From an uncultured Acetatifactor sp. (GTDB taxonomy: Bacteria; Bacillota; Clostridia; Lachnospirales; Lachnospiraceae), in NCBI GenBank assembly GCA_949840935.1, contig CATKXX010000010.1:1-64000 (forward strand): 64,000 nucleotides of DNA, read 5' to 3'. This document shows, piece by piece, positions 43,052-57,390 of the stretch. A program made the position numbers and the translations under genes. Under the pieces are notes generated by a model. It saw nothing but the letters and a program-made list of their open reading frames with translations. It searched no databases and had not been told where the DNA came from. Numbering within the stretch: position 1 is the stretch's first letter; the number at the start of each line of letters is the position of its first letter.

Positions 43052-44558
43052 GTCTCAGCTCCCTTTCCGCATTTTCTCCCGAAGGAAGCCCGCCCTGCGC
43101 TTCCCTGCCGGTTAAAATCACCGGCCAAGCCATCCACAGCTGCAGGATCAGCACCGTATCCTTATAATCCTGCATACCCGCCCCCTGCATGGTATACCAG
43201 ATTACCAGGATTCCCGCCGTAGCCAGACAGCACAGTACAGGCCCCGCTGCCATCCTCCCGGCCCTCCGGCTGCCGGGCAGCCACAGCCCCTGCAGCAGCA
43301 GCGTAAGGATTGCCGCCACCGCAAACCACCAGCACCCGTAATCCATGTAAAGCCTGGACAGCCCCGGCATTTTCTCCAGAAAGAACTCGTAATTCCTGCT
43401 GTAGGTATCGTAACCCCTTCCCATGAGGAACAGCTGCAGGCACACAGGCGACGCGCCGTATCCCAACACATCCCACAGGATTTCCTTACAGATTTCCGGC
43501 CCATGCCACATCCAGGCCAGACCCATGATCTCCACACAGAACGCCTCCGCCTGCTCCTTTGACACAGACTGATCAGCTACTGCCTGTACCAGAATGGGAA
43601 AAAAGCTTTTGTCCATACTGTCCGCATATTCCGCGGCCTGCCAGGCAATATCCTCATTCACAGGGCTTACCATCTCCCAGGGCCAGTCTTCGTAGTCCTC
43701 CTGGATACTGGTCCACACCACCCTCTGAGTCAACGTCATCAGCGGCGTTTTCTGCAGCCTCCCGTAAAACCCCGGTGTACATGTCAGGCTCCCCAGCCCT
43801 GCAATCATCCCGGCAAACGCTGCTGCCAGAAGGATCCCATAGAGCTGCCGCCTCCCATCCCCCTTCCATTCCCTGCAGCAGAAAATCAGCAGCAGCGCCA
43901 CAGGCACCGCGCCCAGATACAGGTACTCCGGTAAAAGGAACGCCAGCAGCAGCCAGCACAGAGAAAGCTCAGCCAGCCTTCTCAGGGTGCGCTTCCCGGG
44001 AATTTTAACCGCTTCCGTCAGCAGGGCAAGCCCTTCCAGAAGCAGCGACGCCGCAAAGGAACAGGGCAGGATTGCCATGTGGCACTGCATGGCCATGGGA
44101 ATGGTCACAAATGCCAGGCTCCCCCATACGGTTTTCCACCCTCCCCGGGGCAGGAAGACACGCAGGAACCTCCATGCCGTAACAAAGGCTGCCGCCAGCT
44201 GCACCCCATAGACGATCACATGCCTCCTCCCCGCAAGCCGCAGGAAAACCGGATATAAAATACCCGTATACTCGTCACAGCGCAGGGTATGGCTGACCTC
44301 CATAAGGAAAATGCTTTCCCCGAACTGCGGCACATGGAAAAAATGACAGCACATCCAGACAATCCCCAGGACTGTCTGGATGCTGATCCCTGTGAAAAGA
44401 ACTCCCTTTAATATGGCGGAAGCATGGCCTGTGATTTTTTGAACGCTTACTCTGCTGTCCACCGTTCCCTCCGTCGTTGTGCTGTCATGCTCTTTTGTTC
44501 CCGGTATAATCAGGCCGCGCTCAGCTGTAAAATCTCCTGACAACGCCGCAGATTTCAT
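43044..44558 (-). CDS. polytopic membrane protein, unknown
   Basis: Multiple TMs; operon context; start may lie downstream of the overlap with the aminotransferase gene. Confidence 0.65.
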   Translation of the reverse strand: MKSAALSGDFTAERGLIIPGTKEHDSTTTEGTVDSRVSVQKITGHASAILKGVLFTGISIQTVLGIVWMCCHFFHVPQFGESIFLMEVSHTLRCDEYTGILYPVFLRLAGRRHVIVYGVQLAAAFVTAWRFLRVFLPRGGWKTVWGSLAFVTIPMAMQCHMAILPCSFAASLLLEGLALLTEAVKIPGKRTLRRLAELSLCWLLLAFLLPEYLYLGAVPVALLLIFCCREWKGDGRRQLYGILLAAAFAGMIAGLGSLTCTPGFYGRLQKTPLMTLTQRVVWTSIQEDYEDWPWEMVSPVNEDIAWQAAEYADSMDKSFFPILVQAVADQSVSKEQAEAFCVEIMGLAWMWHGPEICKEILWDVLGYGASPVCLQLFLMGRGYDTYSRNYEFFLEKMPGLSRLYMDYGCWWFAVAAILTLLLQGLWLPGSRRAGRMAAGPVLCCLATAGILVIWYTMQGAGMQDYKDTVLILQLWMAWPVILTGREAQGGLPSGENAERELRRG

Positions 44559-45648
44559 CCACCTGCTCCAATGTCAGCCCATAATACATGGGCAGGCGGG
44601 CCAGACGCTCGCTCTCCCTGGTGGTGTACCGGTCTTCTCCGTGGAACCGCCCGAATTTCTGTCCCGCAGGTGCCGTGTGCAGGGGGATATAATGGAATAC
44701 CGAGAGGATCCCGTTCTGCTTCATATGGGCGATAAACGCCGTTCTCTGCTCCAAGTCAGCTGCCTTGATGTAAAACATATGGGCATTGTGCACGCAGCCC
44801 TCCGGCACTGTGGGCAATTCGATTTTCCCCGCCTCCGCCAGCGGCAGCAGGTTCTCCCAGTAGCGGTTCCAGAGGGACAGCCTGGCCTCATTGATCTCAT
44901 CCGCTTTTTCCAGCTGGGCATAGAGGTAAGCCGCATTCATATCGCTGGGCAGATAGGAGGATCCCAGGTTCACCCAGGTATATTTGTCAATCTGCCCCCT
45001 GAAATATTTGCTGCGGTTCGTACCCTTCTCACGGATGATCTCCGCCTCCTCCACATCCTTCTCATCCCGGATCAGCAGTGCACCGCCCTCCCCCATACTG
45101 TAATTCTTCGTCTCATGGAAGCTGAAGCAGCCGAAATTGCCAAAGGTTCCCAGCGCTTTCCCCTTGTAGGACGCCATGATCCCCTGGGCCGCATCCTCAA
45201 TAACGGCCAGATGATGCCTCCGGGCGATGTCCATGATCGTATCCATTTCACAGGCAACCCCCGCGTAATGAACCGGCACAATGACGCGGGTCCTGTCCGT
45301 GACCGCCGCCTCTATCCGCTTCTCATCCAGATTCATGGTGTCCGGCCTGATATCCACAAACACAGGCACCGCGCCGCGCAGTGCAAAGGCGTCCGCGGTG
45401 GAAACAAAGGTGTACGCGGGCATAATGACCTCATCCCCCGGCTGGATTTCCGTGAGCAGGGCTGCAAGCTCCGTGGCATGAGTACAGGAGGTGGTAAGCA
45501 GGCATTTCGTTGTCCCTGTCCGCTCCTCGATCCACTGGCTGCATTTATGGGTATAGGGCCCGTCACCGCATATTTTCTGATTCTTTACACATTCCTGAAT
45601 ATAGTCCGCCGCTTTTTCCGCATAAGGCGGTACATTAAAATTAATCAT
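44521..45648 (-). CDS. rffA: DegT/DnrJ/EryC1-family sugar aminotransferase (dTDP-4-amino-4,6-dideoxygalactose transaminase type)
   Basis: ICGDGPYTHKCSQWIEERTGTTKCLLTTSCTHATELAALL, EDAAQGIMASYKGKALGTFGNFGCFSFHETKNYSMGEGG. Confidence 0.9.
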   Translation of the reverse strand: MINFNVPPYAEKAADYIQECVKNQKICGDGPYTHKCSQWIEERTGTTKCLLTTSCTHATELAALLTEIQPGDEVIMPAYTFVSTADAFALRGAVPVFVDIRPDTMNLDEKRIEAAVTDRTRVIVPVHYAGVACEMDTIMDIARRHHLAVIEDAAQGIMASYKGKALGTFGNFGCFSFHETKNYSMGEGGALLIRDEKDVEEAEIIREKGTNRSKYFRGQIDKYTWVNLGSSYLPSDMNAAYLYAQLEKADEINEARLSLWNRYWENLLPLAEAGKIELPTVPEGCVHNAHMFYIKAADLEQRTAFIAHMKQNGILSVFHYIPLHTAPAGQKFGRFHGEDRYTTRESERLARLPMYYGLTLEQVDEICGVVRRFYS

Positions 45649-48342: not shown

Positions 48343-49185
48343 TCACTGCTCCAGGTATGCGGCGATTGTCTCCGCCAGCAGCCTCCTGCCCGCCTCGTTG
48401 GGGTGCAGTCCGTCCCTGGTATAAAGGTTCCAGTCCTCCCACACCTCATGGGGATAGAAATCATGATACAGATCCAGGATCTCCACCCCCATCTCCTCCG
48501 CCACTTCTATTTCCCTGTTTACATACGCCTCCAGTATGCCGCCCCCTTCATCCTTCTCCTCGCAGGTCTCATGGGAATACTCATACCAGCTGTAGGTGGG
48601 GGTCAGCAATAGGATCCTGAGATCAGGGTAGGCTTCCTGCCAGTAAGACAGCGCACTGCGCAGCGCCCCGGTGAACGTGAATTCATCATAGGGATCCTCC
48701 GGGTTCTCCAGGGGCACCCCATCGTGGTAATCGTTGACGCCGTACAGGACGAGCAGGATATCCACATCGGAAAAATCGATGACCTCCACCGTATCTATCA
48801 CTTCCTCAAAATACTCCGTGGCGTTTTCCCTGACCCTGGTTATCTGCTGCAGCCCAAAATCATCCATTGCCGCCGCCCGCGAAAGTAATACAAAGGACAG
48901 GCTGTCCTTGGTATACGCAAGCCTTCCCTCCCTCTCAATGCGGCTTGCACAGGTACCTCCCAGCGCGCCGTTAAAGACCTCCCGCCCTGAAAGCTCCGCC
49001 AGATACCCGCTGACTGCAGTCTCATCCCGCACCTGCCCGAAAATGCTGTCCCCAAACATCACGATCCCGGGGGAATACGTCTTCTCCACCTTTCTGAGAG
49101 GGAATGTGAACAGCAGCAGCGCCCCGAAAAGCGCTATGGATATGAGCCCGTATATGACCGTCTTAATCTGAAGCCTGTTCTTCAA
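48343..49185 (-). CDS. membrane-anchored SGNH/GDSL hydrolase
   Basis: VMFGDSIFGQ, LLVLYGVNDYHDG, RDGLHPNEAGRR. Confidence 0.85.
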   Translation of the reverse strand: MKNRLQIKTVIYGLISIALFGALLLFTFPLRKVEKTYSPGIVMFGDSIFGQVRDETAVSGYLAELSGREVFNGALGGTCASRIEREGRLAYTKDSLSFVLLSRAAAMDDFGLQQITRVRENATEYFEEVIDTVEVIDFSDVDILLVLYGVNDYHDGVPLENPEDPYDEFTFTGALRSALSYWQEAYPDLRILLLTPTYSWYEYSHETCEEKDEGGGILEAYVNREIEVAEEMGVEILDLYHDFYPHEVWEDWNLYTRDGLHPNEAGRRLLAETIAAYLEQ

Positions 49186-50322
49186 TCAAAAATATCCTCC
49201 CTCGATCTTACCCTTTCCCAAATTTCCAGGCTGCTCTCCGTCCCATGGCCTACAGACACCTTCCTCCGGCTGCCCCGCCAGGATCCCGGCAAGCCTCCCG
49301 GCCCCCAGGCCGTCCGTAAGCCCACGCCCCCTCCTGCTGCAGTCCATGCGCTTCCCCGCATCCTCCGCCAGCAGAATCACCTGTTCCGCCAGCCGTTCCA
49401 GCACGGCGCCGGGATTCTTATGGTATGCCCCCGCGGAAGGGGCAATCCCTTCCCTTTGAAGATATTCCGTTATTTTCTCCTGATTCTCCGCGTAGGAGAA
49501 GCATACAAAAGGGACTCCCAGGGCTGCCAACTCATAGACGGTGGAGCCGCCGGCAGTGACAGCCAGGTCGCACCGGCGCATCAGCTCCGCCATATTCTCC
49601 ACATCGTGATAAATATGAATCTGCCCTGACTGCCTTTCCAGGGACTTCATTTCTTCCAGATGGGGGTTAAAGCTTCCGATCACCAGATGATAATCCAGCT
49701 TTATCCCTTCCCCTCCTGCCCCTGTGATCTCCGCCTTCTCCCTGATCTTTCTCAGAATCTGTCCCGCGATATTCTCCTGGTCGCCGCCCCCGGTAGTGAT
49801 CAGAAGATTTTCCGCCCTCCCCCCGGCCTGGCAGGGTTCCCCGCGAAATTGCGGCCTGACCGGCACATAGGCGCTTCCCAGAATCAGCTCCGTGCCCGAG
49901 TCCCCATAAAGCCTCTCATAGGCCGCCCGGTCCGCAAAGGCGTTGTAGTTGACGACCCTGTCCACAGGAAAGCATTCCTCTCCCAGATCGTCCAGCAGCG
50001 TCACCCTGCCGTATGCCCCGATTTCCCGCAGGTAAGCCTTTGTCACAGAATAGCTGTCCACAAGGATGATATTTCTCTTTCCGCCAATCCCCGGTATCCG
50101 GGGCCATGCGGAAAGCTCCCCCTCCATATCCCGCAGGTCGCTCTCCAGGACAAATACTTTATAACCCCTCCGCCGCGCCATCTCTGCAGACTGCGCGTCC
50201 GCACAGACAAACAGAATCTTTTCGCCTGTCCCAAGGCACCGCAGCTCGTCCGCTATGGTCAGGCACCGCATCAGGTGCCCTGCACCGATTCTTGCATTGC
50301 CGTCCGCCCGAATCAGAAACAT
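49186..50322 (-). CDS. pseG: PseG-like UDP-2,4-diacetamido-2,4,6-trideoxy-beta-L-altropyranose hydrolase
   Basis: IRADGNARIGAGHLMRCLTIADEL; LLDDLG; CDLAVTAGGSTVYELAALGVP. Confidence 0.9.
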   Translation of the reverse strand: MFLIRADGNARIGAGHLMRCLTIADELRCLGTGEKILFVCADAQSAEMARRRGYKVFVLESDLRDMEGELSAWPRIPGIGGKRNIILVDSYSVTKAYLREIGAYGRVTLLDDLGEECFPVDRVVNYNAFADRAAYERLYGDSGTELILGSAYVPVRPQFRGEPCQAGGRAENLLITTGGGDQENIAGQILRKIREKAEITGAGGEGIKLDYHLVIGSFNPHLEEMKSLERQSGQIHIYHDVENMAELMRRCDLAVTAGGSTVYELAALGVPFVCFSYAENQEKITEYLQREGIAPSAGAYHKNPGAVLERLAEQVILLAEDAGKRMDCSRRGRGLTDGLGAGRLAGILAGQPEEGVCRPWDGEQPGNLGKGKIEGGYF

Positions 50323-50336
50323 ACCCGCCTCCCGTC

Positions 50337-51395
50337 TTATCCGAAATCCACCAGATCCCAGCTTAAGGGTGTGCCCAGTGCAGCGTCCCTGGCAATCTTC
50401 TTCCCCAATATCTCCTCATAATACATAGTGTGCAGGCCGCAGCCGGGCCGCACGGAGCGCAGGTTTTGGGGCGTGAACACATCCCCTGCTTTCATATCCT
50501 CCGCCACAAACAGGGAGCGGGAATGCTCCCGGGTCTTTGCCTGCTTGGGAGTCAGGTCGTAACTCACCCTTCCCAGGGCCTTTTCAATCTTGCGGATATT
50601 GTCCGTCATTTCCCGAAACTCCTCCGGCTCCATGGAGAAGGCCGCGTCCGGGCCGCCGTCCTCACGCCGCAGCGTCAGATGCTTTTCCACCACCTTCGCC
50701 CCCAGCGCCACCGCGGCGCAGGCCACCGCGCCGCCCATGGTATGATCCGACAGGCCCGCGATGCAGTCAAAGCTCTCCCGCATGGAGGGAATCGTCCTCA
50801 GGTTGATATCCTCGTAGGGCGCAGGGTAAGCCGAAGTACATTTCAGCAGGATCACCTGCTCATTCCCCTCCTCCCGGCAGGTTCTAAGAGCCATCTCGAT
50901 ATCGGCCATATAAGCAATCCCCGTGGAAATGATCACAGGCTTGCCCGTCCGGGCAATCTTTCTCAGGAAAGGGATATCCGTGATTTCCGGGCTGGCCACC
51001 TTATAGGCAGGCACCCCCATCTCCTCCAGGAAATCAATGCTGTGCAGGTCAAAGGGCGAGGAGAAAAAGATCAGCCCCATCTCCTCCGCAATCCTCTTTA
51101 ACTCCGGCTGCCATTCCCAGGGCGTGTACGCCGTCTCATACAGCCTGTACAGCGTAGTCCCGTCCCAGATGGTTCCCTGGGTGATCTGGAAGCAGGGGGC
51201 CTCACAGTTTAAGGTAATGCTGTCCGGCGTGTAAGTCTGTATCTTAATGGCATCCGCCCCCGCCTCCCTGGCCGCCTTCATGATCGCCACCGCCCGGTCA
51301 AAGTCCATCAGATGGTTGGCGGACATTTCCGCTATGATAAACGCCGGGGCGTCCTCGCTGACCAGGCGGCTGCCGATATAAATCTCCTTCTTCAT
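50337..51395 (-). CDS. pseI: pseudaminic acid synthase
   Basis: EMSANHLMDFDRA, GTIWDGTTLYRLYETAYTPWEWQ, SPFDLHSIDFLEEMGVPAYKVASPEITD, C-terminal SAF domain. Confidence 0.95.
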   Translation of the reverse strand: MKKEIYIGSRLVSEDAPAFIIAEMSANHLMDFDRAVAIMKAAREAGADAIKIQTYTPDSITLNCEAPCFQITQGTIWDGTTLYRLYETAYTPWEWQPELKRIAEEMGLIFFSSPFDLHSIDFLEEMGVPAYKVASPEITDIPFLRKIARTGKPVIISTGIAYMADIEMALRTCREEGNEQVILLKCTSAYPAPYEDINLRTIPSMRESFDCIAGLSDHTMGGAVACAAVALGAKVVEKHLTLRREDGGPDAAFSMEPEEFREMTDNIRKIEKALGRVSYDLTPKQAKTREHSRSLFVAEDMKAGDVFTPQNLRSVRPGCGLHTMYYEEILGKKIARDAALGTPLSWDLVDFG

Positions 51396-51461
51396 ATCAA
51401 TATCATACCTTTCCGCGCCCTGTGACGCCTCTCTGGAACGTGTCTGGAAAATGACGTGTTC

Positions 51462-51878
51462 TCACCGGAAGGAAGCCATGCCCTCGTATAAGATCTTTGC
51501 CGACCCCAGGATAACGCATTTCCCCTCCTGGTTATACACGTTTGTCTCCAGGATAATGATCCTTTTCTCCGGCTGGATCTCCGTGATCTTTACCCTGGCT
51601 GTCACCGTATCGCCCACAAACACCGGCTTTCGGAAGGACAGGTTCTGTTCCAGATAGATACTGCCCTCCCCCGGAAGCCGGGTGCCCAGCACCCCGGAGA
51701 TCAATCCCGATACCAGGATCCCATGAACCACACACCTTCCGAACCTTCCCTTCTCCGCGTAAGCCTCGTCCACATGTAAGGGGTTATGATCCCCCGAAAG
51801 CCCGGCAAACTGCCGCACCTCCTCCATGGTAAAGCATTTGGAGGCCTCCGCCTCCTTCCCTGCATATAATTCTTCCAT
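51462..51878 (-). CDS. MaoC-family (R)-specific hydratase / hot-dog-fold protein
   Basis: FAGLSGDHNPLHVDEAYAEKGRFGRCVVHGILVSGLISGVLGTRLPG. Confidence 0.92.
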   Translation of the reverse strand: MEELYAGKEAEASKCFTMEEVRQFAGLSGDHNPLHVDEAYAEKGRFGRCVVHGILVSGLISGVLGTRLPGEGSIYLEQNLSFRKPVFVGDTVTARVKITEIQPEKRIIILETNVYNQEGKCVILGSAKILYEGMASFR

Positions 51879-51880
51879 CC

Positions 51881-52456
51881 TTATATCCTTTCACCGCATT
51901 CCCCGTGGAACTGTTTCTCCAGCTCCAGGATATCCCGTCTGCGCTCCCCCTTTTTCCTGGCGGGGATTCCCACATACATGGCCCATTCCTCCGTGCTCTT
52001 ATTGCAGAGGGACATGCTTCCCACCGCCGTACCCTCCGCCACCGTCACTCCCGGCAGCACCACGCTGTTACAACCGATGATGGCGTGCCTGCCAATCCGC
52101 ACCGGGCTGCTGATACTGCCGGGCTTATACCGGGCGGGCACCATGGGATTCGTCATGGAGGCGCCGCTGTAATCATCCGACACGGCATAGATGGAGCATT
52201 TGGAGGAGAGCCCCGAGAAGTCCTCCATCACAATACCCTCATCTCCCCCGTACAGCCCGCAGAACTGTGAAATATGGATATAATCCCTCAGTGTGACATT
52301 TCCGCTGATGACAGTAAAGTCGTCAATCCGCACGTGATTGCCCAGGCTCAGTTTCTCCGGGCTGTACAGCACCGCATGTCTTCCGATCAGCACGTCCTCG
52401 CCATATTCCTTTAACCCCAGACCTCTCAGCTCCTCTTTGGATAAAAAATTGTCCAA
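51881..52456 (-). CDS. left-handed beta-helix (hexapeptide) acyltransferase
   Basis: IGRHAIIGCNSVVLPGVTVAEGTAVGSMSLCNKSTEEWAMYVGIPARK. Confidence 0.9.
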   Translation of the reverse strand: MDNFLSKEELRGLGLKEYGEDVLIGRHAVLYSPEKLSLGNHVRIDDFTVISGNVTLRDYIHISQFCGLYGGDEGIVMEDFSGLSSKCSIYAVSDDYSGASMTNPMVPARYKPGSISSPVRIGRHAIIGCNSVVLPGVTVAEGTAVGSMSLCNKSTEEWAMYVGIPARKKGERRRDILELEKQFHGECGERI

Positions 52457-52481
52457 CTCTTTCCCTCCTGTTACTGCCTGT

Positions 52482-53180
52482 TTACCGGTTTTCCCCGGAA
52501 TGCATCAGGCGGTATTTCATTTCCGCGATCTGCCAGTCCGTCAGGCTGTCGATATCCTGCACCTCCAGCTCCGACACCACCAGGGGCAGGATATTTCCCG
52601 TCATAACCTTTTTCGTCCGCCGGAAGGCCTCCGTGCGGAAAACATAAAACTGCCCCGCGTCATGGTAATGGGGCTGCAGATCCTGGGAACGGCTGTCCAG
52701 GTATTCCGGGTAACGAAACACTAGCCTCCCCTCCTCCATCACAAACGCCCGCTGGGGAGGGTAGGAGAACGCCACTACCGGAATCAGGGAATCCGCGCCG
52801 CAGGCTCCCAGCCTCTCCACCGCCTCCCTCAGCTTTTCCCCCGTCACAAAAGGGGCTGTGGGATAGATACAACACCCGATATCAAAGGATTCCCCCCGCT
52901 TCTCATATTCCTCCAGGACTTCCAGAAGTACCTCACTGGTGGAGGCGTGGTCGCCGGCAGTCCTCTCGCTGCGGGTAAAGGGAACCTGGGCTCCATATTG
53001 TTTCGCGATCTCCGCGATCTCCGCATCCTCTGTGGATACCATGACGCAGTCAAACGCCCCCGACGCCAGCGCCGCCTCCACAGAATATGCCAGTATGGGC
53101 TTCCCGCAGAAATTCCGGATATTTTTCCGGGGAATCCGTTTGCTTCCGCCCCTTGCCGTAATGATTGCTATTGTCCTCAT
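52482..53180 (-). CDS. pseF: pseudaminic acid cytidylyltransferase
   Basis: MRTIAIITARGGSKRIPRKNIRNFCGKPILAYSVEAAL; start at MRTIAII, not the ORF-track start, which runs through the upstream tandem repeat. Confidence 0.92.
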   Translation of the reverse strand: MRTIAIITARGGSKRIPRKNIRNFCGKPILAYSVEAALASGAFDCVMVSTEDAEIAEIAKQYGAQVPFTRSERTAGDHASTSEVLLEVLEEYEKRGESFDIGCCIYPTAPFVTGEKLREAVERLGACGADSLIPVVAFSYPPQRAFVMEEGRLVFRYPEYLDSRSQDLQPHYHDAGQFYVFRTEAFRRTKKVMTGNILPLVVSELEVQDIDSLTDWQIAEMKYRLMHSGENR

Positions 53181-53200
53181 ACCATTGTCCGTCCTTTTAT

Positions 53201-53325
53201 CGTCCTGTGCTGAGCTGCGTTTTGCGTCATGCGGCGGGCCCGCCCAAGTTGTTTCTTCGTCCTGCACAAAGTCGCATTTTGCGGCATGCGGTGGGCCCAT
53301 CCAAGCAGTTTCATCGTCCTGTGCG
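53201..53325. repeat. 57-bp intergenic tandem repeat, two full units plus a partial third
   Basis: Units start at 53201, 53258 and 53315 with cgtcctg(t/c)(g/a)c...; unit length 57 bp. Confidence 0.85.
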
Positions 53326-54342
53326 TCCCGCGCGGAGCCGCCGCACCAGGCGCTTCAACCGATACCACAAATAAAATCCCAGGTTGGATCTTTGCTGCAG
53401 CGCGATCAGCCGCTGCTCCTCCCCGCCGGTGTTTTCCCGGTAATATTGGTTCTGCTCAAACAGCGGAAAGCGCTCCCGGATTCCCGCCCTTAACTCCCTC
53501 ACAAAGGACAGCTTCGGGTGCCCTACTCCCGCCATATAGGAAAAGAGAGTGTTCACATAATAAAGCTCCGCGAAGCGGTACTCGAGCTCCTTTTTGTATT
53601 CTTCCAGAAATCCCCGCTCCTTACACTGTTCATATAATAATACCGCCGCTTTCATGCGGTCCCTGCATTTCTCCTCGGAAATATGATGCACCGTGGACAC
53701 CTGGCGCTGGTAATAATAGTACAGCGGTTCCTCCACTTTCTCAAACCGGGTGAAATACAGCGACCACAGGGGCCCCGCGCAGTTGTCCTCGTAAAAGATC
53801 CCCTCCGGGAAATCCAGGCGGTTCTCCGCGATCACCCTTCTTCGATACACCTTGATCACCATACTGCCCATACGCATCAGCAGGCTTTTGTGCTTATCCC
53901 TGTCCAGCAGTCCGGTCTGGGCCATGGTGTTGTTCTGTACGACCTTGCCCACCTCAAAGGTGTGCTCCGACACCAGGCTGTAATCGCAGCCCACCAGATC
54001 CGCCCCCGTTTCCTCCCCTTTCCGGATCAGCTTTTCATAAAAATCGGGAGCCGCCCAGTCGTCGCTGTCAACAAAGCCCACCCAGTCGCCCCGGGCCCTC
54101 TTGAGCCCTTCGTTCTTGGCTCCCCCCTGGCGTTTGTTCCGGGGATAAGTAATGACCCTCACCAGATCAGGGAAGCGCTTTTCATACTCCCGCAAAACCT
54201 CCAGAGAGCCATCCGTGGAAGCGTCGTCCACCGCCAGGATCTCATAATCCTCCAACGTCTGGGCAATCAGGGAATCCATACAGTAATTCAGTTTTCCCTC
54301 CGCCGCCATATTATACACCGGCACAATAATGCTCAGCTTCAT
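53311..54342 (-). CDS. family 2 glycosyltransferase
   Basis: LSIIVPVYNMAAEGKLNYCMDSLIAQTLEDYEILAVDDASTDGS; FVDSDDWA. Confidence 0.92.
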   Translation of the reverse strand: MKLSIIVPVYNMAAEGKLNYCMDSLIAQTLEDYEILAVDDASTDGSLEVLREYEKRFPDLVRVITYPRNKRQGGAKNEGLKRARGDWVGFVDSDDWAAPDFYEKLIRKGEETGADLVGCDYSLVSEHTFEVGKVVQNNTMAQTGLLDRDKHKSLLMRMGSMVIKVYRRRVIAENRLDFPEGIFYEDNCAGPLWSLYFTRFEKVEEPLYYYYQRQVSTVHHISEEKCRDRMKAAVLLYEQCKERGFLEEYKKELEYRFAELYYVNTLFSYMAGVGHPKLSFVRELRAGIRERFPLFEQNQYYRENTGGEEQRLIALQQRSNLGFYLWYRLKRLVRRLRAGRTGR

Positions 54343-56087
54343 AGGCTGCCCCTTTCAAGGACTGCCCTGCCGCCCTCCACCCGGTACACGAGATCGCACT
54401 TTTCGATGGTCTGCAGCCTGTGCGCAATGATGATCAATGTCTTCCTGCCATGCAGCCGGTTGATGGACTCCATGATCGCGGCCTCGGTGTCATTGTCCAG
54501 CGCGGAGGTAGCCTCGTCCAGCACCAGCACCTCCGGGTCGTGGTACAGGGCCCTGGCAATGCTGATACGCTGCCTCTGTCCGCCGGAGAGGCGGATCCCC
54601 CGCTCCCCGACCCCGGTGTCAAGCCCTTCCGGCAGCGACCGGATGAATTCGTCCAGCTGCGCCTCCCTCAATACCTCCCACAGCCTGTCCTCGTCAATCT
54701 GATCCTCCGGCACCCCGAAGGCCACATTCTTCCGGATGGTATCATCCAGCATAAAGATCATCTGAGGGATATATCCTATATTTCTCAGCCATTTCCGGTA
54801 ATTTCTCCTGACGTCCACGCCGTCCGCGCACACCGTGCCGCTCTTTGCCTCCAGAAGCCCCAGCAGGATATCCACCACGGTACTCTTTCCCGCCCCGGTG
54901 GTTCCCACGATCCCCACAGACGCCCCGATGGGAATCGTCATCCGGGCATGGTCAAAGATCAGCTTATCCGTGTTGGGATAGGCGTATGTGATGTCCCTGA
55001 GCTCAATGGATTCCCTGATCGGAAGCTTTTCTTCCTCCTCTGCGGCAAAGGACAGATCCACCTTATCCCCCCGGATCTCATCCTGCAGATTATCGCTGAC
55101 CCCCATGAAAAAGGGCTCGAAATACGCAATGGAATTGATCTGGTTGTTGATCCGGTTCACCGCCGGGAGCAACACAATAGCCGCCGCTGCCAGTGTGGCC
55201 ATGGCCGTCACCAGCTCCTCCGTGTGCATACCGGACACCACCTGCAGGATCATATAACCCATCATGGCCGCCACGCAGGCTGTCTCGATCAGCAGCTTGG
55301 GGATATTGTTGTACAGGCTGTACTTCTGCACCGCATCCACATACCCCTTCCCGCATTTCCTGTACTCAGCAACAAAATACTGCTCCTTGCCGTTTACCTT
55401 GATTTCCTTAATTCCCTGGACAGTCTGGGAAATCCATTTGAACAATCCGCTGTAGAAATCCTGATTGTCCTTCCCTGCCTGGTACATAATGGGCTTAAGC
55501 ACCTTCTTGATCACGTACATCAGCGCCAGCAGCACCACCGCCAGCATGGCCGTCATGGCGCCGTTATTCATAAAGCAATAGCTCACTATGAACAGGGACA
55601 CCACCCCGTCGGACAACAGCTGCAGCAGGGCAAGGATCAGGGCATACATATTGTTCACATCGGAAGTAATGCTCCTCTGCACCACCGCCGTGTCCGCATT
55701 GAGATAAAATTCATACCCCCTCCGCAGATAATTGCGCATCATCCGCTCCGAAGTCCTGAACTGATTGGTATAGACAAAGGCAAAGGTCAGCTTCTGCTGG
55801 AAAAACAGGAACAGGTTTTTCACCACAAACACTGCCACCAGCAGCCCCATCACCATCACGGAAAAGCTCTCATAACTGTCGCAGCCCAGGAATCGGTACA
55901 GCGCCCCCACCGTGGCGCTGGTCTCCACCGCGTCAGGGTCAATGACCACATTTACCACCTGTACCAGCATCCCCACACCCGCCGTCTGCAGGAAAGCCCC
56001 GATGATCATCAGCACGATCAGGCCGCCCATGGCGCGCTTCTGTTTTTTGTCCAGTAAGACCTGCAATTTTTTCACTATCTTCCACAT
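54339..56087 (-). CDS. ABC exporter, fused TMD-NBD (PglK/MsbA-like flippase candidate)
   Basis: Six-TM N-terminal half; GIVGTTGAGKSTVVDILLG; LSGGQRQRISIARALYHDPEVLVLDEATSALD. Confidence 0.92.
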   Translation of the reverse strand: MWKIVKKLQVLLDKKQKRAMGGLIVLMIIGAFLQTAGVGMLVQVVNVVIDPDAVETSATVGALYRFLGCDSYESFSVMVMGLLVAVFVVKNLFLFFQQKLTFAFVYTNQFRTSERMMRNYLRRGYEFYLNADTAVVQRSITSDVNNMYALILALLQLLSDGVVSLFIVSYCFMNNGAMTAMLAVVLLALMYVIKKVLKPIMYQAGKDNQDFYSGLFKWISQTVQGIKEIKVNGKEQYFVAEYRKCGKGYVDAVQKYSLYNNIPKLLIETACVAAMMGYMILQVVSGMHTEELVTAMATLAAAAIVLLPAVNRINNQINSIAYFEPFFMGVSDNLQDEIRGDKVDLSFAAEEEEKLPIRESIELRDITYAYPNTDKLIFDHARMTIPIGASVGIVGTTGAGKSTVVDILLGLLEAKSGTVCADGVDVRRNYRKWLRNIGYIPQMIFMLDDTIRKNVAFGVPEDQIDEDRLWEVLREAQLDEFIRSLPEGLDTGVGERGIRLSGGQRQRISIARALYHDPEVLVLDEATSALDNDTEAAIMESINRLHGRKTLIIIAHRLQTIEKCDLVYRVEGGRAVLERGSL

Positions 56088-56117: not shown

Positions 56118-57206
56118 TCAGATCTGCTCATTCTGCCTGTGGATCAGCGGATCCTCATAGGCATCCATAAAATCCGCCCCCAGGCAGACGGTTTCCTCCG
56201 CAAAGGGCAGATCCTTGATCTCCGTGAAGACGCCCACCACCTTCCGAAAACGCACCCCTGGGAAAAACTGCAGCATCTCCATGGGAATCTTGGCGTCAAA
56301 CTGGGGGTATTCCCCAAATTTGCTGCGATAATCCAGCTCGTCCCTGGGGTGGGGCTTGAGGAAGATCTTCCCCTCCGGCTCATACATCCTGATGATATCC
56401 CGGAAGATACGCTCCCGGACGTCCAGCGTGCACAGTGGGTCTGTCAGAATCAATATCTTATTCTCCTCCCCCGCTCCCTGTTCCAGCTGCTCTTTCAGGC
56501 CTTCCATATCCCGGATAAAGGCTTTCAGTATCCGCTCCTTATCCTCCCTGGTCAGCCTGTCCACCAGCTCCTTCCTGGGTGCCTCAATATACTGAGGGCA
56601 GGGGTAGTGGATGGCGGAAATGTCATTGACCTCCATATCCAGACAGTACTTGCCATATCCGTTTTGTACGAAGATCAGGTTCAGCTTCCTGGACAGGAAC
56701 GCCTTCAGCTTAAAGTGCCCTCTGTTGTCATACCGGGCGGCGTCAAAATTCTTCAGACAGTTCAGCCCGTCCTCCACGGCGTGATAATAAATCTTATTCT
56801 GATTCAGATAATACCCGATGGGATCCGAATCGCAGTATACATAAATATCCTCATATTCCCGAAAATCCACCGGCACATAGGGCGCTTCCAGCTGCGCGTA
56901 CCTCCTGGTAAAACGGATGCGGCAGTACAGGTTCCCCAGGAATCCTCCCCCGCCCTTCCTCCACCTGGCAAGCTCCGGGAAGAAATCCTCCCGCTTCTCA
57001 TCAAATTCCAAGACCTCCCGGAACAGCCCGGAAGCCTCCACACGGCTTTTCAGGTCTTCAAAATCATTGGACATACTGGAAAGCACCAGGGTCGCCCGGC
57101 CCTGCTGCTCCTTCGGCAGCTTTAATTCCTTTAAAAAAGTGATATAAACATGATAATAAGTATGACACACATATATCCTGGGCCATTTCTTTGTATTCTT
57201 ATTCAT
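56118..57206 (-). CDS. GT52-like (sialyl-/polysialyltransferase-like) glycosyltransferase
   Basis: RIYVCHTYYHVYITFLKEL N-terminus, HAVEDGLNCLKNF, KILILTDPLC, KIFLKPHPRDELDY (HP motif); start at MNKNTKK with GGAGGG upstream. Confidence 0.7.
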   Translation of the reverse strand: MNKNTKKWPRIYVCHTYYHVYITFLKELKLPKEQQGRATLVLSSMSNDFEDLKSRVEASGLFREVLEFDEKREDFFPELARWRKGGGGFLGNLYCRIRFTRRYAQLEAPYVPVDFREYEDIYVYCDSDPIGYYLNQNKIYYHAVEDGLNCLKNFDAARYDNRGHFKLKAFLSRKLNLIFVQNGYGKYCLDMEVNDISAIHYPCPQYIEAPRKELVDRLTREDKERILKAFIRDMEGLKEQLEQGAGEENKILILTDPLCTLDVRERIFRDIIRMYEPEGKIFLKPHPRDELDYRSKFGEYPQFDAKIPMEMLQFFPGVRFRKVVGVFTEIKDLPFAEETVCLGADFMDAYEDPLIHRQNEQI

Positions 57207-57230
57207 TCTTATACACTGTGCCCTCCATGA

Positions 57231-57390
57231 CGCCTGACTGCCAATGCTTCCGGTTTTCAATGTCTCCGGTTTTCAATGCTTCTGGTTTCCAATGTCGCCG
57301 GTTTTCAATGCCTCCGGTTTTCAATGTCTCTGATTTCCAATGTCTCTGATTTCCAATGTCTCTGATTTCCAATGTCTCTGATTTCCAATG
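57231..57390. repeat. 16-bp minisatellite, about 9-10 tandem units
   Basis: Units (c/t)(t/c)(t/c)C(C/T)G(G/A)TTT(T/C)CAATG at 16-bp steps from 57247; the last four units (57327-57390) are identical. Confidence 0.9.

Follow-up and report, generated by a model that had tools for sequence, protein, structure and literature searches.

The window, the whole 64,000-nucleotide stretch analyzed here, belongs to an uncultured Acetatifactor sp. (Lachnospiraceae; contig CATKXX010000010.1, positions 1 to 64,000). Between positions 49186 and 53180, on the minus strand, it holds five genes, in the order pseF, LbH (an acyltransferase with a left-handed beta-helix), MaoC (an (R)-hydratase of the MaoC type), pseI, and pseG. 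These genes and their neighbors are as follows.

44521 to 45648, minus strand: WecE-type dTDP-Fuc4N aminotransferase (TIGR02379, 628 bits; cutoff, 434.9)
48343 to 49185, minus strand: SGNH/GDSL hydrolase, immediately after pseG (PF13472)
49186 to 50322, minus strand: pseG, UDP-sugar hydrolase (NCBIfam TIGR03590, 197.5 bits; cutoff, 153.6)
50337 to 51395, minus strand: pseI, pseudaminic acid synthase (NCBIfam TIGR03586, 476.5 bits; cutoff, 340.3)
51462 to 51878, minus strand: MaoC/PhaJ-type (R)-enoyl-CoA hydratase, the proposed source of (R)-3-hydroxybutyryl-CoA (PF01575, E 1.7e-24)
51881 to 52456, minus strand: LbH acyltransferase of AntD type, proposed PseH substitute (hexapeptide PF00132)
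52482 to 53180, minus strand: pseF, CMP-pseudaminic acid cytidylyltransferase (NCBIfam TIGR03584, 284.5 bits; cutoff, 205.7)
53311 to 54342, minus strand: family 2 glycosyltransferase, same operon (best NCBIfam match PRK10073, below cutoff)
54339 to 56087, minus strand: PglK-like ABC transporter, possible glycan flippase, same operon (NF050066, 342.9 bits, below cutoff)
56118 to 57260, minus strand: GT52/polysialyltransferase-like protein, candidate CMP-nonulosonate transferase, also present in relatives (PF07922, E 1e-10; PF07388, E 7e-6)

PseG, PseI, and PseF, already recognized in the initial annotation, all scored above their NCBIfam cutoffs, and the MaoC and LbH genes lie between pseI and pseF, where it had placed them. 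Intergenic gaps along pseF-LbH-MaoC-pseI-pseG are 25, 2, 66, and 14 bp; pseF to pseG is one tightly packed operon. The pseF start was set at 53180 because the 40 additional residues from an in-frame upstream ATG (53300) fall outside the matched domain. Besides WecE, the window’s cluster contains a second DegT aminotransferase.

The module shares PseC, PseG, PseI, and PseF (all over cutoffs) with the classical PseBCHGIF pathway of Campylobacter and Helicobacter; where that pathway has the GNAT PseH, the module has LbH and MaoC. No PseH-type GNAT was found from pseF to pseG, in agreement with the initial annotation. The best GNAT of the genome (C10:67126-67674; 81 bits; PseH cutoff, 93.1) is encoded 14 kb upstream, beyond the window’s end, and adjoins another (DegT) aminotransferase. 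It was considered as the missing PseH and set aside, because relatives with a PseH in the slot also keep the same DegT-GNAT pair; judged by this gene content, it is probably not the missing enzyme. PseC is encoded outside the window, 25 kb off (C10:77896-79164; 465 bits; cutoff, 423.5). PseB was found in 10 of 12 genomes tested, with none above cutoff in the window’s genome (assembly 64% complete). In the relative G344, PseB is encoded upstream of pseF, at approximately 30 kb; the corresponding place here would be just past the contig end. Given the incomplete assembly and a contig that stops near the expected place, real loss of PseB is unlikely.

Close relatives (G344, G022, and G135) carry pseF-FkbH-ACP-GNAT-pseI-pseG-SGNH, with a PseH-like GNAT, whereas the window and loci L073 and L074 carry pseF-LbH-MaoC-pseI-pseG-SGNH. 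Because FkbH, ACP, and the PseH-like GNAT occupy exactly the same slot, the window’s arrangement is read as a cassette swap. The FkbH cassette is expected to give a glyceryl group where the LbH-MaoC cassette would give 3-hydroxybutyryl. The SGNH hydrolase is retained with either cassette, and its position is kept in L073, L074, L153, L154, and L156.

LbH proteins encoded next to nonulosonate genes formed a single branch (18 proteins versus 63 others; SH-aLRT, 98). A MaoC neighbor accompanies 16 of these 18, compared with 0 of the 63 others, and in 2 of the 16 (L084 and L087) the MaoC and LbH domains are fused into one polypeptide. Strains with the cassette include Lachnospiraceae bacterium A2 (L077) and Roseburia sp. 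1XD42-69 (L076). LbH-MaoC, mapped as a label on the PseI tree, requires at least three changes; the pair thus accompanies distant synthases, in several gene orders. Of the 76 genomes of the family that have a PseI-like gene, just two have a MaoC no more than 2 kb from it, and these are also the only two with LbH at that distance. The MaoC genes of G094 and G173 were rejected as the same cassette (5 to 9 kb from pseI, beside FkbH, with a different pocket), and a plasmid search for MaoC returned distant metabolic homologues only. MaoC and hexapeptide proteins both belong to widespread families, and a stray hydratase beside a generic acetyltransferase in a glycan cluster would leave plain Pse5Ac7Ac as the product; the pairing and the two fusions make such chance adjacency highly improbable. 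The functional link between MaoC and LbH, originally a guess, is thereby supported.

The best PDB match of the LbH protein, over its full length, is the set 3vbi-3vbp (E 2e-51), labeled “galactoside O-acetyltransferase,” which we take to be AntD, an N-acyltransferase. LbH is also 46% identical to an AntD-like LbH encoded beside an aminotransferase in Bacillus dicomae (Bacillus cereus group). Its active-site Ser84, aligned with a residue that differs among the deposited PDB chains, is kept in 18/18 clade members and 61/63 other LbHs. A WbbJ/WcaF-type O-acetyltransferase was rejected as an identity, with NCBIfam scores far under cutoffs and an AntD match spanning the full length. AntD is named as an N-acyltransferase in a title cited in PMC8141488. 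AntD-like LbHs outside the clade are mostly encoded next to DegT aminotransferases of other sugars, neighbors that are suggestive of acyl transfer onto the amine of an NDP-amino sugar and that favor the N-acyl transfer assumed in the initial annotation.

Two other roles for LbH were weighed. It might O-acylate or O-acetylate finished pseudaminic acid while a GNAT elsewhere performs the PseH step. The PDB label, the PseH-like GNAT 14 kb away, and the GNATs that adjoin LbH in four clade members (L081, L082, L084, and L087), where LbH may therefore not be the sole acyltransferase, would fit this role. It is nonetheless distinctly unlikely, considering the presumed AntD identity of the PDB entries, the distant GNAT also kept by relatives having a slot PseH, and most LbH-MaoC loci, which have no GNAT near pseI. 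Alternatively, the cassette could make an (R)-3-hydroxyacyl group and place it on a different amino sugar in this glycan, for instance the dTDP-Fuc4N produced by WecE, which would be a rival substrate; the product of the second DegT aminotransferase could also be the real acceptor. WecE is encoded in the same cluster without an adjoining acyltransferase, and the aminotransferase neighbors of AntD relatives outside the clade also speak for it. Against it, in L075-L080, L083, L084, and L087 the pair sits among pseF, pseI, and pseG without WecE in view, in L086 and L088 it adjoins PseC directly, and WecE is seen in few loci only; we consider this acceptor unlikely. In L072, the order is LbH-MaoC-PseG, with no pseI or pseF nearby.

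The MaoC protein best matched the (R)-specific enoyl-CoA hydratase 1iq6 (E 2.4e-34), the PhaJ of Aeromonas caviae, with which it shares sequence, the catalytic Asp/His of the hot-dog domain (D30 and H35, conserved in the alignment), and pocket positions (S61, L64, and I129); that PhaJ serves polyhydroxyalkanoate synthesis, unlike the role proposed here. The positions are presumably those that line the pocket, as assigned from PhaJ work. All LbH-paired MaoCs retain the catalytic and pocket residues, and their pocket is made tighter by bulky side chains at position 64 (L or I) and position 129 (I, V, or M); two unpaired MaoCs carry G/A at position 64.

In the two clade members that lack MaoC, a FabG/PhaB-like SDR reductase takes its place, accompanied in one of them (L082) by a thiolase above cutoff; there, thiolase and reductase stand in for MaoC. 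The SDR scores under the curated acetoacetyl-CoA reductase cutoff, and its substrates could be ACP-bound; by homology, the reductase and thiolase are a predicted alternative route to 3-hydroxybutyryl-CoA. The window’s genome encodes the complete butyrate operon thl-crt-hbd-bcd-etf, and crotonyl-CoA is therefore available. Both hbd and bcd are present in 15 of 16 MaoC genomes and both are missing from the genome that has the thiolase and the SDR; in the L083 genome, which has MaoC, no bcd and no convincing hbd were found. Another 3-hydroxyacyl-CoA could be the donor for pseudaminic acid, either a longer chain or the branched 3-hydroxy-3-methylbutyryl-CoA that is linked to anthrose in the AntD pathway (PMC8141488). 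The tight MaoC pocket, the butyrate genes that accompany the MaoC form, and L082, where the simplest outcome of thiolase and reductase is 3-hydroxybutyryl-CoA, make this quite improbable. The acyl chain guessed in the initial annotation thus gains support from the PhaA/PhaB-like replacement of MaoC and from the host butyrate operon.

From these comparisons, the LbH-MaoC pair probably takes the place of PseH as an acyl-specification cassette, which would make (R)-3-hydroxybutyryl-CoA and put its acyl group onto a pseudaminic acid precursor; the initial annotation’s view of MaoC as a donor maker is thereby supported. The PhaJ-like MaoC would hydrate crotonyl-CoA from the butyrate pathway to (R)-3-hydroxybutyryl-CoA, and the AntD-like LbH would move the 3-hydroxybutyryl group onto the 4-amino group of the PseB/PseC UDP-sugar. 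PseG would release the acylated sugar, PseI would condense it with phosphoenolpyruvate, and PseF would activate the product to CMP-Pse5Ac7(3-hydroxybutyryl), which a glycosyltransferase encoded in this operon would use. The most likely product is predicted to be a 7-N-[(R)-3-hydroxybutyryl]-type pseudaminic acid. The initial annotation called the cassette self-contained. Donor maker and transferase are indeed present, but the term is slightly too strong, because crotonyl-CoA must come from the central butyrate pathway and two of the Pse enzymes are encoded elsewhere, PseC at a distance of 25 kb and PseB off the assembled contig.

Pse5Ac7(R-3-hydroxybutanoyl) is made by psaABCGHF of Acinetobacter baumannii (K42 and K93) and by psb of Shigella boydii type 7 (PMC9676051, PMC6586298, PMC3628348). 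These loci share the predicted product with the window, and there, too, a two-gene swap in a constant pse module sets the acyl group; however, their swapped pair is a UDP-sugar cleaver and an acyltransferase, whereas the window’s is a transferase and a donor-making enzyme. The six-gene psa module, as named in those papers, has no hydratase. In the anthrose operon antABCD, found in the Bacillus cereus group, AntD is homologous to the window’s LbH (identity with the B. dicomae protein, 46%), but its acceptor is a dTDP-4-amino hexose instead of the proposed nonulosonate precursor. AntA is a putative enoyl-CoA hydratase; the anthrose literature covered does not state its activity. Knockout of AntA halves anthrose (PMC10050317). 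The idea of an enoyl-CoA hydratase in the AntD locus of B. dicomae was discarded, as Pfam gave no match of this kind for the gene upstream, and no MaoC was found in the AntD-related loci examined. The Pseudomonas syringae viosamine island (vioS, vioR, acp, and vioB), in which vioR deletion abolishes the modified sugar (PMC3927599), is likewise a sugar cassette with its own 3-hydroxybutyryl-making genes; its route acts on viosamine and runs through KASIII, a reductase, and an ACP, in contrast to a CoA hydratase and pseudaminic acid. No description of a MaoC hydratase in pseudaminic acid synthesis was found in the open-access literature searched, and the dedicated MaoC, the AntD-type transferase replacing PseH, and the exchangeable slot appear to be new.

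Nonulosonate operons of gut Lachnospiraceae plausibly, and on balance likely, contain an exchangeable donor-plus-transferase slot that may be filled by LbH plus MaoC, a MaoC-LbH fusion, LbH plus reductase and thiolase, or FkbH plus ACP and GNAT, such that the N-acyl group of the surface sugar is switched by swapping a cassette with its own acyl-donor enzyme, matched to the central metabolism of the host. PseH-based annotation would merely call a missing gene in such genomes. The cassettes, the fused hydratase-transferase included, would be natural acylation modules for the enzymatic synthesis of acyl-variant nonulosonic acids. If this reading is true, it would provide a sequence rule to predict non-acetyl pseudaminic acids in commensal genomes, and it would tie butyrate fermentation directly to surface-sugar chemistry that is read by hosts and phages.

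The five genes of the module (pseF, LbH, MaoC, pseI, and pseG) were found as initially annotated, closely packed in succession on the minus strand (window positions 49186-53180), and the PseG, PseI, and PseF identities held, each scoring above its curated cutoff. All five are part of an extended glycan cluster encoded on one strand, which also includes a PglK-like ABC transporter, a GT52/polysialyltransferase-like protein, several glycosyltransferases, and a WecE aminotransferase.

51881-52456, minus strand: LbH (left-handed beta-helix) acyltransferase
51462-51878, minus strand: MaoC-type (R)-hydratase
Contig C10:77896-79164: PseC, 25 kb upstream of the module

Immediately upstream of pseC, where the cluster starts, is a gene for a TIR-domain protein (L009:19253-19993; contig C10:79253-79993). 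Three 16-base repeats with exact 57-base spacing (window 53195-53324) fall mostly inside the 130-base gap that separates pseF from the GT2 gene; they were not called as an array by Tandem Repeats Finder.

The host genome is 2.89 Mb and 64% complete (window, C10:1-64000), and its closest relatives by LbH similarity are gut Lachnospiraceae MAGs labeled Acetatifactor and Blautia. No PseB was found in this 64%-complete assembly; PseB exceeded the cutoff in 10 of 12 genomes tested. In the congeneric genome G344 it lies ~30 kb upstream of pseF, a distance that would fall just beyond the end of the window's contig (82588); the absence is thus most simply explained by an assembly gap. A PseH-type GNAT is indeed missing from the slot between pseF and pseI. 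The sole GNAT in the window's glycan cluster scored 81 bits (PseH cutoff, 93.1) and is partnered with a different aminotransferase; G344 has the same DegT-GNAT pair plus a separate GNAT directly before pseI.

With LbH as the query against genome contigs, 80 loci were recovered. Eighteen LbHs, including that of the window, formed one branch (SH-aLRT, 98), although near copies (L076/L078 and L086/L088) put the independent count below 18. A nonulosonate gene adjoins LbH in 18/18 clade members and MaoC in 16/18; outside the clade, 0/63 LbHs have a MaoC neighbor, and most adjoin DegT aminotransferases. The LbH-MaoC pairing is conserved, in two relatives as a single polypeptide, and occurs in several gene orders.

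L084:7560-8597 and L087:7572-8588: fused MaoC hydratase domain and AntD-like LbH domain
Window: pseF-LbH-MaoC-pseI
L075, L083: pseF-pseI-LbH-MaoC-pseG
L066/L085: MaoC-pseI-LbH
L086, L088: LbH-MaoC-PseC

Locus L072 (7938-10134) carries LbH-MaoC-PseG in an otherwise window-like cluster, with pseF and pseI absent within its 16.5 kb. On the PseI tree, the LbH-MaoC label requires at least three changes; the synthases of L079 and L080 form a lineage apart from the window's, that of L079 scoring higher as NeuB than as PseI. Of the 76 family genomes that carry a PseI-like gene, only G000 and G045 have MaoC within 2 kb of it, and only these two have LbH within that distance.

The window and relatives L073 and L074 share the order pseF, LbH, MaoC, pseI, pseG, SGNH; genomes G344, G022, and G135 have pseF, FkbH-domain protein, ACP, PseH-like GNAT, pseI, pseG, SGNH. 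The window's PseI shares 76-77% identity with those of G344/G022, so the module backbone is orthologous and its middle differs. Scored on the G344 copies, the FkbH-domain protein reached 277 bits for TIGR01686 (cutoff, 147) and the ACP matched PF00550.

L153:1278-3745: FkbH, ACP, and PseH-like GNAT in the pseF/pseI slot
L154:13617-16055: same
L156:11256-13687: same

FkbH-type proteins load glycerate onto ACP, so relatives with this cassette probably make an N-glyceryl sugar, which the gene content suggests to be N-glyceryl pseudaminic acid. In C. jejuni, the fkbH-domain gene cj1302 lies within the flagellar glycosylation region (PMC7099621). An SDR-MaoC-FkbH group occurs in other Lachnospiraceae (L070:4555-6038 and L071:13155-14530); its MaoC pocket differs.

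The best structural match of MaoC was A. caviae PhaJ, with catalytic D30 and H35 and with S61, L64, and I129 at the positions that shape the PhaJ pocket. In all LbH-paired MaoCs, residue 64 is L or I and residue 129 is I, V, or M; two MaoCs without an LbH partner have G or A at 64. The host carries a thiolase-crotonase-hbd-acyl-CoA dehydrogenase-etfBA operon, so crotonyl-CoA should be available; hbd and acyl-CoA dehydrogenase occur in 15/16 genomes with the MaoC form. The host's crotonase/hbd branch would yield (S)-3-hydroxybutyryl-CoA, as is established for butyrate formation in clostridia; the (R) form would come from MaoC. The clade members without MaoC (L081 and L082) have a FabG/PhaB-like reductase after LbH, and L082 also has a thiolase.

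L082:8573-10493: reductase and thiolase genes (PhaA/PhaB-like set) inside the pse cluster of an Atopobiaceae MAG

The L082 genome showed neither an acyl-CoA dehydrogenase nor a convincing hbd; this one case fits the same donor being made from acetyl-CoA.

LbH aligns along its length with structures 3vbi-3vbp, which are named galactoside O-acetyltransferase in PDB but are structures of AntD. Ser84, variable among the deposited chains, is kept in 18/18 clade members. A title cited in PMC8141488 gives AntD as an N-acyltransferase of anthrose synthesis. The PseC product is the putative acceptor of LbH, given the occupation of PseH's slot, the nonulosonate neighborhood, and, in L086/L088, the position directly next to PseC. 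There are two weak points: LbH may not be the sole acyltransferase in L081, L082, L084, and L087, where a GNAT adjoins it, and it may act on another acceptor, the WecE product (dTDP-Fuc4N) being available within the window's cluster.

The initial proposal that MaoC makes the acyl donor for an acylated pseudaminic acid is supported by comparative genomics and appears likely. The sugar type is already known, A. baumannii (psaABCGHF) and S. boydii (psb) being established producers of Pse5Ac7(R-3-hydroxybutanoyl) (PMC9676051, PMC6586298, PMC3628348), and the logic of dedicated acyl-donor genes within a sugar cassette is shared with systems such as the P. syringae viosamine island (PMC3927599). Since no paper joining MaoC with pseudaminic acid was found among the open-access papers searched, what appears new here is the combination and the exchangeable genomic slot that holds it.
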